64,000 bases of DNA from an uncultured Chloroflexales bacterium (GTDB taxonomy: Bacteria; Chloroflexota; Chloroflexia; Chloroflexales; Chloroflexaceae). This document shows, piece by piece, positions 43,558 through 55,739 of the stretch (position 1 is the stretch's first letter; each line of letters begins with the position of its first letter). The stretch is from NCBI GenBank assembly GCA_937918935.1, contig CAKZSI010000030.1:62001-126000 (forward strand). Reading direction: 5' to 3'. The notes under the pieces were generated by a model that saw only the letters and a program-made list of their open reading frames with translations, was not told the DNA's origin and searched no databases. The position numbers and the translations under genes were made by a program.

Positions 43558-43648
43558 TGGCGGGGAGAGCGAGATTCGAACTCGCGAGGGCTTTTTACAC
43601 CCTACTCGTTTTCGAGACGAGCACGTTCAACCACTCCGTCATCTCCCC
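43558..43648 (-). tRNA. tRNA-Ser (anticodon CGA)
   Basis: A 91-base serine tRNA with encoded CCA. The acceptor stem GGGGAGA pairs with TCTCCCC, the discriminator is G and CCA follows. The anticodon stem-loop CTCGT-CTCGAAA-ACGAG shows anticodon CGA, which reads UCG. The long variable arm (AGGGTGTAAAAAGCCCT) is that of a class II tRNA. The T arm GCGAG-TTCGAAT-CTCGC is intact. A hairpin with a T-run follows downstream. Confidence 0.95.
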
Positions 43649-50463: not shown

Positions 50464-50470
50464 AGCACAG

Positions 50471-50499
50471 TTGACACTCCCGATGTCTACGAGTATACT
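50471..50499 (+). promoter_or_regulatory. Near-consensus promoter of the mgtE leader
   Basis: TTGACA and TATACT separated by exactly 17 bases; the best promoter match seen in the window. It starts 7 bases after the SDR stop codon. Confidence 0.75.
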
Positions 50500-50555
50500 T
50501 CCTCGCGTTCACACACGGGCAAAACCCTGTTGCTGACGGCTGGTTGAACAACCCC

Positions 50556-50574
50556 GGGGAAACCGGGTTTCCCC
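50556..50574. repeat. Dispersed palindrome family A, perfect copy in the mgtE leader
   Basis: GGGGAAACC-G-GGTTTCCCC, a perfect 19-base inverted repeat, followed by CATACCCCTGCCTGAGGGG as in other composite copies and by a degenerate B and C copy (50590-50640). Confidence 0.75.
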
Positions 50575-50771
50575 ATACCCCTGCCTGAGGGGAGGGCATG
50601 TAAGGCTTTGTCCTTCCAGATCGTAATTCGGATAACCTGCTTTATCCTGAGGACTCAGCATGGACGGTAGTCATACAGGTCAGCGGCGTAGTGGAGCGCC
50701 CACAATCACTGCCAGCTTCACCGGTCCTGCGTGCGCCAGGGGTCACGCCTGAGCGTCGCAAAGTCACCCTT

Positions 50772-50801
50772 CCCGGTGCGGCATGGCCCACCGGGTTTTT
50801 T
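50772..50801 (+). terminator. Intrinsic terminator in the mgtE leader
   Basis: CCCGGTG (50772-50778) pairs with CACCGGG (50789-50795), 10-base loop, followed by TTTTTT and TGTT. It lies 125 bases before the mgtE start and downstream of the promoter, so it would stop mgtE transcription unless prevented from folding. Confidence 0.75.
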
Positions 50802-50926
50802 GTTGCCTATCCGGGCCAGGCACTTTTGCTCCCTCCGCCGCAGGTGTCGCATCAGCCGGCGCCAGGTACGTCTTAGGTGTGCGCTGCGGGCGACAACACC
50901 CGCCGCCTATCTGGAGGAAGCGGAGT

Positions 50927-52282
50927 ATGACCAGGGTTCCAACCACAAGTGTCGAGACCATTCACAACCTGATCACCTCACAACGATGGGCCGAGGTGCG
51001 TGTGGCGCTCGCGGTCTGGCCCGAAGCTGAGATTGCCGATCTGTTACTGAGACTGGCTCCTGCCAAACGGGTGCTGGTGTTTCGCCTGTTGCCACGCGCG
51101 GTCTCCAGCGAGGTGTTCGCGCACCTCGCTGCCGACGATCAGAACGACCTGCTCGCTCAACTTACCAGTGAGGAGACCAGGCATCTGCTGGCCAGCCTGA
51201 CCCCTGACGATCGCACCCAGCTCCTCGAAGAATTGCCGGGTCAGGTGACCCAGAAACTGCTCAATCTGCTCGGCCCCGATGACCTGCGCGAGGCACGCCA
51301 GCTTCTCGGGTACCCGGAGGAGAGCGTGGGGCGTCTGATGACCCCCGACTATGTCGCTGTGCGCCCGGAGTGGACCATCGCTCGCTCCCTGGAGCACATC
51401 CGTAGTCGCGGCCTGGACAGCGAGACGATTAATATGGTCTACGTCACCGACGAACACTGGCGCTTCCTCGACGCCCTCGAACTGCGGCGCTTCATTCTGG
51501 CCGATCCGCAGCAGACTGTGGCGGAGATTATGGACTACGCCTACGTCGTACTTTCGGCCTTCGATGATCGCGAGAAAGCCGTACAGGCCCTGCGCCGCTA
51601 CGACCTGCCGGCGCTCCCCGTGGTTGACTCGGGAGGCGTATTGCTGGGGATCGTCACCTTCGATGACCTGATCGATGTCGCCGACGAAGAGACGACCGAA
51701 GACTTCCACAAGGGCGCTGCTATAGCTCCGCTGCGCGGCAGGTACCTGGAAGCCAGGATCATCGAACTGGTGCAGAAACGGTTGCCCTGGCTGCTGGCGC
51801 TGGTATTTGTGAATATCTTTTCAGGCGCGGGCATCGCCGCCTTCGAAGACACCATCGCCGCGGTGGTCGCCCTGGTCTTCTTTTTGCCCCTGCTGATCGA
51901 CAGCGGCGGCAACGCCGGCTCCCAGTCGGCAACGTTGACGGTGCGCGCCCTGGCCTTGGAGGAAGTGCACGGACGTGACTGGACCAGGCTGCTGCGCAAA
52001 GAACTGGTCGTGTCGGCCATGCTTGGCCTGGCGATGGCCGCAGCAGTGGCAGTGCTGGCCTACTTCCGCGCTGGCCCGGCCGTGGCCCAGGTCGTCGCGC
52101 TGACGATGGCGCTGGTGGTCGTGGTTGGCAGCACCATCGGCACCGTGCTGCCCCTGCTGTTGCGGCGTATGGGTCTTGACCCTGCCACTGCCAGCGGGCC
52201 GCTGATCACCTCGCTGGCCGACATCTCGGGCGTGCTGATCTATTTTTCGCTGGCAACCTGGCTGCTTGGTGTGGGATCATGA
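50927..52282 (+). CDS. mgtE: Magnesium transporter MgtE
   Basis: A 451-residue magnesium channel. The N domain (LRLAPAKRVLVFRLLPRAVS, FAHLAADDQNDLLAQLTSEE) is followed by two CBS domains (GRLMTPDYVAVRPEWTIARS, then YDLPALPVVDSGGVLLGIVT with the DDLIDV end) and five membrane helices (PWLLALVFVNIFSGAGIAAF, FLPLLIDSGGNAGSQSATL with the conserved GGNAGSQ pore motif). ATG 50927 has GGAGGAAG. In the family, Mg2+ binding to N and CBS domains closes the pore. The upstream leader suggests additional control at transcription. Confidence 0.96.
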   Translation: MTRVPTTSVETIHNLITSQRWAEVRVALAVWPEAEIADLLLRLAPAKRVLVFRLLPRAVSSEVFAHLAADDQNDLLAQLTSEETRHLLASLTPDDRTQLLEELPGQVTQKLLNLLGPDDLREARQLLGYPEESVGRLMTPDYVAVRPEWTIARSLEHIRSRGLDSETINMVYVTDEHWRFLDALELRRFILADPQQTVAEIMDYAYVVLSAFDDREKAVQALRRYDLPALPVVDSGGVLLGIVTFDDLIDVADEETTEDFHKGAAIAPLRGRYLEARIIELVQKRLPWLLALVFVNIFSGAGIAAFEDTIAAVVALVFFLPLLIDSGGNAGSQSATLTVRALALEEVHGRDWTRLLRKELVVSAMLGLAMAAAVAVLAYFRAGPAVAQVVALTMALVVVVGSTIGTVLPLLLRRMGLDPATASGPLITSLADISGVLIYFSLATWLLGVGS

Positions 52283-52668: not shown

Positions 52669-54390
<1,722 letters not shown>

Positions 54391-54407
54391 TCCACAAGGA
54401 GCGAGCA

Positions 54408-55739
54408 ATGAGCGCCTCTCGAACCCCGGCGCTGGTGGAAGTGCGTGGCGTGGCCCAGCGCTATGGGCACGGCGACAAACGCTTTACTGCCGTGGAAAAC
54501 ATCAACCTGAGCATCCGCGAGGGCGAGTTCGTCGCTCTTCTCGGCCCCTCGGGCTGCGGCAAGAGCACCCTGCTGCGGATCATCACCGGTCTGAACGAGC
54601 CGAGCGAGGGTGCGGTACTCTACCGTGGTGAACCGCTCCGCGGGGTCAACCCTAAAGCCACTATCGTCTTCCAGACCTTCGCCCTCTTCCCCTGGCTGAC
54701 GGTCGAAGACAACGTGGCCGTGGCCCTGCAGGCGCGCGGTGTGGCCCCCGAACCGGCCCATGCCCGCGCCGTTGAATTGATCGACCTGGTCGGGCTCGAC
54801 GGCTTCGAGCAAGCCTATCCCCGCGAACTGTCGGGCGGCATGCGCCAGAAGGTCGGCATCGCCCGCGCCCTGGCGGTAGACCCGGAGTTGCTCTGTCTCG
54901 ACGAGCCCTTCAGCGCCCTCGATGTGTTGAGCGCGGAGACCCTGCGCGGCGAGGTGCTGGAACTGTGGACCGGCGGCCAGTTGCAGATCCGCGCAGTGCT
55001 GATGGTCAGCCACAACATCGAAGAGGCCGTCTTTATGGCCGATCGGATCGTGGTGATGGACAAAGGTCCGGGCCGCATCGTGGCTGAGGTGGCGGTAAAC
55101 CTGCCCCATCCGCGCGACCGTAAATCCGACGCCTTCGCCGCGCTGGTCAACCGCGTCTACGCCCTGCTGATGGGCCAGACCCAGCCTGAGGAGGTCGAGT
55201 TCGGCACCGAACCGGGACAGGCCGGCAAGACCCGCGCACTGCCCATGGCCCCGGTGACCGCTCTGGCCGGTTTACTCGAGCACACCAATGCCACCCCCTA
55301 TGAGCGCGACGAAATCGCCCAACTGCGCGAGGATCTGGGCCTCAATCTCGACGACCTGCTGCCGCTGGTGGAAGCCGCCGAACTGCTGGGCTTCGCGCGG
55401 GTCGAGGGCGGGGCGATGATCCTTACGCCGCTGGGCGAGGCCTTTGCCGAGGCCAGCATCCTGGCGCGCAAAGAGATCTTCGCCACCCGCCTGCGGCGCC
55501 TGCCCTTCTTCCGCTGGATGCTGCGCATGCTCCAGGCCGCAGGCGACCAGGCACTGCGCTGGGAGGTGCTGCTTACCGCCCTGGAGCGTGACTTCCCGCC
55601 CGAGGAGGCCGAACGGCAACTGGACATCGCCAGCGAGTGGGGGCGCTACGCCGAACTCTTTGCCTACGATGACACCGAGGGGGTCTTCTTCCTGGAGGGC
55701 CGCGAGGCGGCGACACCGGCTGGCGCGGGGGAGCGGTAG
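54408..55739 (+). CDS. ABC transporter ATPase with C-terminal AAA-associated domain
   Basis: A 443-residue ATPase for the fused permease. The NBD has Walker A LLGPSGCGKSTLLRI, Q-loop VFQTFALFPWLTVEDN, signature LSGGMRQKVGIARAL, Walker B LLCLDEPFSALD and the H-loop VSHNIEEAVFMADR, which together match the NitT/TauT group. The extra C-terminal 160 residues (PVTALAGLLEHTNATPYERD, then DLGLNLDDLLPLVEAAELLG) match the AAA-associated C-terminal domain often fused to these ATPases, possibly a regulatory winged helix. ATG 54408 has AAGGAGCG; the longer frame upstream lies inside the permease gene and is not used. Confidence 0.93.
   Translation: MSASRTPALVEVRGVAQRYGHGDKRFTAVENINLSIREGEFVALLGPSGCGKSTLLRIITGLNEPSEGAVLYRGEPLRGVNPKATIVFQTFALFPWLTVEDNVAVALQARGVAPEPAHARAVELIDLVGLDGFEQAYPRELSGGMRQKVGIARALAVDPELLCLDEPFSALDVLSAETLRGEVLELWTGGQLQIRAVLMVSHNIEEAVFMADRIVVMDKGPGRIVAEVAVNLPHPRDRKSDAFAALVNRVYALLMGQTQPEEVEFGTEPGQAGKTRALPMAPVTALAGLLEHTNATPYERDEIAQLREDLGLNLDDLLPLVEAAELLGFARVEGGAMILTPLGEAFAEASILARKEIFATRLRRLPFFRWMLRMLQAAGDQALRWEVLLTALERDFPPEEAERQLDIASEWGRYAELFAYDDTEGVFFLEGREAATPAGAGER

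Follow-up and report, generated by a model that had tools for sequence, protein, structure and literature searches.

In the MgtL leader of enterobacterial mgtA, acidic residues after the initiator Met destabilise the ribosome at low Mg2+ (as summarised in PMC11282234, which cites Chadani 2017 and Gall 2016). Salmonella mgtQ is a tiny open reading frame in which Asp2 and Glu5 induce ribosome destabilisation, so that an alternative stem is exposed and Mg2+ transporter output rises (PMC8092293). Sensing of Mg2+ through ribosome destabilisation has been described mainly in enterobacteria. In mycobacteria, an M-box is followed by a conserved upstream open reading frame (uORF) at pe20/rv1535 (PMC12810186) and at mgtE of M. 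abscessus (PMC4974804), and in M. abscessus the uORF is ribosome-protected. The mycobacterial M-box controls uORF translation and Rho, and the peptide has been described as mycobacteria-specific (PMC12810186).

We analysed the leader of mgtE in a 64,000-nucleotide stretch of DNA from an uncultured Chloroflexales bacterium (the window). It is probably a transcription attenuator that is controlled by the ribosome and based on a leader peptide of 30 codons, and low Mg2+ is the likely signal. With MgtL it shares a short ORF before a Mg2+ importer gene, an acidic residue right after Met and, presumably, the direction of control, in which full translation turns expression off and early faltering turns it on. 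MgtL differs in using a Rho-dependent terminator, whereas the terminator of the window leader is intrinsic and its antiterminator is contained in the uORF. The two also differ in phylum, in the family of the transporter and in the peptide (EPDP in MgtL, only Asp2 here), and no sequence homology is claimed. Salmonella mgtQ is likewise a tiny acidic ORF linked to Mg2+ transporter output, but it is part of the mgtCBRU operon and regulates the initiation of translation, whereas the window leader would act on transcription termination. The four-segment logic, the leader ORF (its translation is predicted here) and the competing hairpins recall trp/his/ilv-type attenuators (e.g., the ilvB uORF, PMC11109978), but the window leader lacks a run of codons for a pathway amino acid and controls a metal transporter. 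The M-box (ykoK, RF00380) resembles the window leader in gene class and likely signal, and adjoins a homologous uORF in sister genera. However, at the covariance-model cut-off of 44 bits it is absent from the leader, the window and G000, the genome to which the window belongs.

The leader and the genes downstream

The leader, as read from the sequence, is about 420 nt long, with its own promoter and an intrinsic terminator ahead of the ribosome binding site (RBS) of mgtE. Genes and elements of the switch are on the + strand. The sigma-70-type promoter TTGACA-17-TATACT occupies 50471-50499 (TTGACA 50471-50476, TATACT 50494-50499) and matches the consensus at 11 of 12 positions, where shuffled sequences are expected to yield 0.1 promoter. 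Promoters of the same type precede the mgtE leaders of Chloroflexus and of G002-G004. RNA polymerase would start near 50506. The RBS (GGAGGAA, 50913-50919) precedes the ATG at 50927 of mgtE (50927-52282), which encodes a 451 aa Mg2+ transporter with the Pfam domains MgtE_N, CBS and MgtE. A sequence-only reading had recorded this promoter, the leader length and the RBS, all of which we found as described. It overlooked the uORF at 50660-50752 and the repeat nature of 50556-50596.

The latter interval belongs to a dispersed, genus-specific repeat that lies inside the leader and outside the switch, with dozens of partial copies in genomes of the genus. Copies were identified in G000-G004, G026 and G032, and are absent from Chloroflexus leaders. 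The interval is part of a palindrome-like element (CCCCGGGGAAACCGGGTTTCCCCATACCCCTGCC...), several copies of which are inserted in the G004 mgtE leader.

Downstream of mgtE, and probably in the same operon, is an ABC transporter permease (52669-54390; BPD_transp_1 in two stretches), followed by an ABC ATPase with a C-terminal AAA-associated domain (AAA_assoc_C; 54411-55739, start codon approximate). Two relatives retain the leader despite decay of mgtE. In G002 the leader is linked to the ABC permease as well and mgtE is a 34-aa remnant (L004/L012); in G003 mgtE is degraded by a stop and deletions, and the leader and the ABC permease remain (L002/L052). This retention suggests that the target of the leader includes the ABC transporter, and we consider the permease and ATPase (52669-55739) a candidate Mg2+-linked system. 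Elsewhere in relatives, a permease operon related to 52669-55739 has its own M-box and uORF (L185-L188).

An apparent uncoupling of leader and mgtE in G004, where they are on different contigs, was rejected; the same repeat is present on the two contigs where they break off, making an assembly gap likelier. In G004 and Viridilinea, a repeat with GTAATTGGTAT ends separates the leader from mgtE (L003, L032, L074), and it probably broke the G004 assembly at this point.

The uORF and the competing hairpins

The uORF (50660-50752, stop codon at 50750-50752) encodes the 30-residue peptide MDGSHTGQRRSGAPTITASFTGPACARGHA and is preceded by a Shine-Dalgarno sequence, GAGGA (50649-50653). Similar in-frame ORFs occur in relatives: uORFs of 27-32 codons that start with Met-Asp precede mgtE in 17 genomes. 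Their peptides begin MDSSHSRQRQ, MDVSSHSRRRG, MDDHQPGRRR, MDGSHPRQRRS or MDSSYPPRRRR, for example. A similar layout of uORF, antiterminator and terminator stands before mgtE in the genus of the window, Chloroflexus, Chloroploca and Viridilinea (all one GTDB family), and in one further family. The pieces of the leader recur ahead of mgtE in other genera and so are not there by chance.

An acidic residue (D/E) is at position 2 in 31/34 leader peptides of a hand-picked set, 15 of which have at least two within residues 2-5. The window peptide has a single acidic residue, Asp2. Purifying selection on the entire peptide was considered and rejected, as pN/pS over the whole uORF is non-diagnostic, ranging from 0.45 (Chloroflexus) through about 1 (genus of the window) to 2.5, with two sets above 1. 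Given that whole-uORF values are not low, clear constraint appears to be limited to the peptide start (~10 residues); the C-terminal halves diverge freely. Serine codons AGT and pairs of Arg near the start are often kept. Lacking is a run of codons for one amino acid in the uORF, in which Arg and Ser are only scattered, and NCBIfam contains no family for these peptides.

We predict four segments. The terminator (50772-50801, -17.4 kcal/mol) has a 5' arm, CCCGGTG-C-GGC (CCCGGTGCGGC, 50772-50782; segment 3), and a 3' arm, GCCCACCGGG (50786-50795), which with the T6 run (50796-50801) forms segment 4. Segment 2 (50715-50724, GCTTCACCGG) was recognised by complementarity and folding; it is the left arm of the antiterminator and coincides with uORF codons 19-22. 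The right arm is 50773-50782, shared with the terminator 5' arm. The sequence-only reading had noticed the CCCGGTG/CACCGGG hairpin with its T-run and an upstream CACCGG able to pair with the left arm in an exclusive fold. Both hold: CACCGG at 50719-50724 is complementary to CCGGTG at 50773-50778 and forms part of a longer helix, GCTTCACCGG/CCGGTGCGGC (50715-50724/50773-50782), with 9/10 pairs. Segment 1 (50662-50671), a predicted anti-antiterminator from the minimum free energy fold only, would pair with segment 2 when the RNA is ribosome-free. The terminator and antiterminator folds are mutually exclusive, as in an attenuator, and the RBS-bearing leader ORF that overlaps the antiterminator is conserved in relatives, as in ribosome-mediated attenuators.

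Covariation had been proposed as a check on both helices. Among 12 close mgtE leaders they are ~98% paired and nearly invariant, and the covariation score was reached in 31-35 of 500 shuffles; formal covariation on this 12-sequence alignment is weak. The real support for the pairing comes from divergent paralogous leaders. Chloroflexales leaders pair the uORF with the terminator 5' arm over 9-10 bp, nearly always at uORF nt ~56-75, despite differing sequences (e.g., CTCATCGG:CCGGTGAG, TCTCGCCAG:CTGGCGAGA and GCTTACC:GGTAAGC). With terminator arms set by hand (automatic calling chose wrong arms in some leaders), this complementarity exceeds that of shuffled uORFs, with a combined p=1.7e-9 for 12 Chloroflexales representatives that is overstated by their relatedness. 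The mgtE leaders of G004 and G022 have poor antiterminators, and the same test outside Chloroflexales was not significant (combined p 0.18).

Folding of 22 leaders with the ribosome footprint masked gave the terminator in 22/22 when codons 17-26 were covered. With a ribosome at codons 1-12, the uORF of the nascent RNA pairs with the 5' arm in 21/22; once the 3' arm is present, the antiterminator is retained at equilibrium in 9/22. In the window leader, a ribosome at codons 1-12 is predicted to preserve the antiterminator even when the terminator is complete. The ribosome-free window leader favours the terminator at equilibrium, the antiterminator left arm being masked by the 5' half of the uORF. 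Thus, ribosome drop-off alone may not suffice, and in these folding models a paused ribosome fits the window leader better.

In the proposed model, a ribosome would initiate the uORF at 50660. Translation into codons 17-26 would cover the antiterminator left arm, the terminator at 50772-50801 would form, and mgtE and the ABC genes would be off. Were the ribosome to pause on, or fall off, the first ~12 codons (M-D-x-S-H...R-R), the terminator 5' arm could be bound by codons 19-22 and transcription would continue, making this a four-segment attenuator that is ON when the ribosome is held near the uORF start. At low Mg2+, ribosomes may falter on the acidic-start peptide, as in MgtL/MgtQ. The architecture (the parts, their conservation, the alternative pairing and the association with Mg2+ genes) is well supported; the ON/OFF direction, uORF translation and Mg2+ as signal are inferred. 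Mg2+ is favoured because the known ORFs of Mg2+ transporters, MgtL and mgtQ, work by acidic residues after Met, although with its single acidic residue the window peptide is a weak example of the destabilisation motif.

The same attenuator could instead answer to slow decoding of Arg, Ser (AGT) or His, or to general translation stress. The frequently kept AGT codons and Arg pairs would suit this, as would the folding mechanics, which accommodate any ribosome pause on codons 1-12. We consider it unlikely, however, as the genes downstream are Mg2+-type transporters of several unrelated families, the usual partner is an M-box, and the feature common to all groups is Asp2 rather than a codon run for one amino acid.

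The M-box in relatives and its absence here

Just upstream of the same uORF before mgtE, Chloroploca and Viridilinea have an M-box (115-120 bits) that carries its own terminator. A leader model (R1) detected a second copy of the leader in G002-G004 and some Chloroflexus genomes; it is behind an M-box and precedes an operon with an ABC permease related to that at 52669-54390. Each of the 14 M-boxes detected in the GTDB family has a uORF with an acidic start behind it (MEEGGSH, MDDGSH, MDEGSH, MDDDQS, MDDSHHHP, MDDPHQHP, MAHADPDG, MDVSSHS and others). The uORF start, antiterminator and terminator are kept without an M-box in the mgtE leaders of genus g1 and of eight Chloroflexus genomes. For the M-box at mgtE, we prefer loss in the lineage of the window, gain in the sister genera being the alternative. 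In related leaders, M-box and peptide resemble a pair of Mg2+ gates arranged in series; at mgtE of the window, only the peptide gate is present. We conclude that the attenuator in the window governs an mgtE-ABC operon, the partner of the M-box here working alone.

Loss of the M-box could also have left a relic, the remaining uORF and terminator acting as a passive element with constitutive read-through. Sister genera do have an M-box at the same place where the genome of the window has none, and mgtE decays in G002 and G003. Yet these two genomes keep the leader, with the ABC permease still nearby, and the peptide start, antiterminator and terminator persist across genus g1 and the eight Chloroflexus genomes, as do M-box-less uORFs of the MDAGPS type in Ktedonobacteria-like genomes (see below). 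A relic is therefore improbable.

The sequence-only reading proposed an undescribed ion-sensing attenuator and saw no consensus strings of M-box or yybP-ykoY. A search of the leader against Rfam agrees on the second point: no family reached its gathering score and nothing rose above noise at E<=10, the best chance scores being 12-16 bits against cut-offs of 39-55. The sole Rfam match in the window is a tRNA gene at 43561-43648 (-). Alternative folds and the lack of an Rfam match leave room for an ion-binding aptamer in 50505-50770 that acts on the terminator directly. However, the promoter-to-uORF stretch is variable among relatives, filled by the repeat in the window and only short in most Chloroflexus leaders; comparison of leaders found no conserved structured core beyond terminator and antiterminator, and the single-sequence fold is not unusually stable (z -0.66). 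An aptamer is thus very improbable. Attenuation by two mutually exclusive folds, as originally proposed, is supported. Because the conserved part is an ORF with terminator and antiterminator, the stretch upstream is variable and an M-box precedes the same uORF in sister genera, the leader is best read as a leader-peptide attenuator controlled by translation, and not as a new riboswitch class.

Least probable is a small protein acting in trans (cf. mycobacterial Rv1805A), for which the conserved N-terminus and the M-box-linked conserved uORFs of unknown role in mycobacteria (PMC12810186) could be cited, but the C-terminal halves diverge freely and the uORF overlaps the antiterminator.

Putative leader peptides across Chloroflexota and possibly beyond

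We searched 400 Chloroflexota genomes for M-boxes and added the family set, which yielded 49 leaders in 30 genera altogether. A uORF was scored when an ORF with an ATG-GAY start and 15-70 codons lay no more than 280 nt past the M-box. Such uORFs are present in 31/49 leaders (19/30 genera), compared with 2.3+/-1.6 in dinucleotide shuffles (maximum 8) and 1 on the antisense strand; TPP-riboswitch leaders of the same phylum, used as a control, have it in 0/30. Several of the remaining M-box leaders have a similar peptide that begins with GTG/TTG, has Glu at position 2 or lies outside the interval scored. As in mycobacteria, an M-box is followed by a conserved uORF before Mg2+-related genes, and this combination was already known there. 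The Chloroflexota peptide and expression platform are different: numerous M-box leaders contain a terminator of their own, a second one comes after the uORF, and the uORF also occurs without an M-box.

In nine genomes, the uORF behind the M-box belongs to a subgroup with the start MDAGPS[ST]. In this subgroup, codons 4 (Gly4) and 5 (Pro5) vary nearly exclusively at the third base, and all four Pro codons occur, a hallmark of translated sequence. A DNA pattern for the MDAGPS start has matches in 33/400 genomes, whereas the reversed control pattern has 2 matches. Most are in large genomes of family f30, apparently Ktedonobacteria-like. The eleven genomes inspected all have MDAGPSHSR or MDAGPSSSH behind AAAGGAGGTGAGGGAC, ahead of a gene of PRC-MgtE type (by Pfam for one). 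Only two f30 genomes have an M-box, on contigs other than those with the MDAGPS leaders. A further conserved stem, CTTACTCGA...TCGAGTAAG and then GCCAGTAAGTCC, is found about 120-230 nt past the uORF start in Ktedonobacteria-like mgtE leaders (L288-L295), and is possibly their expression platform.

Genes behind these leaders encode MgtE, PRC-MgtE, MgtC, Nramp-like proteins, P-type cation ATPase and ABC permease, and the constant feature is the peptide start, not the transporter family. We hold it to be evenly balanced whether Mg2+-sensing leader peptides, unrelated in sequence to MgtL, gate unrelated transporter families across the phylum through ribosome faltering on the first residues, alone or in series with an M-box. 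The proposed peptide family has the motif M-D-x-[GDS]-[PHS]-S... (e.g., MDAGPSHSR, MDDGHPGRR, MDSSHSRQR and MDGSHTGQR). A conserved peptide start before several transporter types suggests that Mg2+ sensing by the ribosome itself could be widespread and in many cases combined with a Mg2+ riboswitch, and raises the question of why one leader would need two Mg2+ gates. The peptide motif could connect uncharacterised transporters, among them the ABC system beside mgtE, with Mg2+. No mention of these peptides, or of Mg2+ leader peptides in Chloroflexota, was found in the open-licence literature.

Acidic or Pro-containing uORFs precede mgtE at 8/53 loci in other phyla, where 2.75 are expected; at least two are probably spurious ORFs, and we treat the count as a lead only. 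In one Bacillota mgtE leader (L091, about 2282-2500), the uORF behind an M-box encodes a peptide that starts MDGDPSPYG, a hint that peptides of this type are not confined to Chloroflexota. The Anaerolineae mgtE leaders L090 (about -270 to -109 before mgtE) and L089 have acidic uORFs (MDIQSDAEVPEPDRQNP... and MDVDSSHPKLLADV...) and no M-box, and in L090 a clear intrinsic terminator is past the uORF. The nearest relatives of the window MgtE (50-67% identity) are scattered among Anaerolineae, Gemmatimonadota, Bacillota, Methanoperedens and others, and are absent from most Chloroflexota (L083-L152), a patchy distribution that is probably the result of horizontal transfer.
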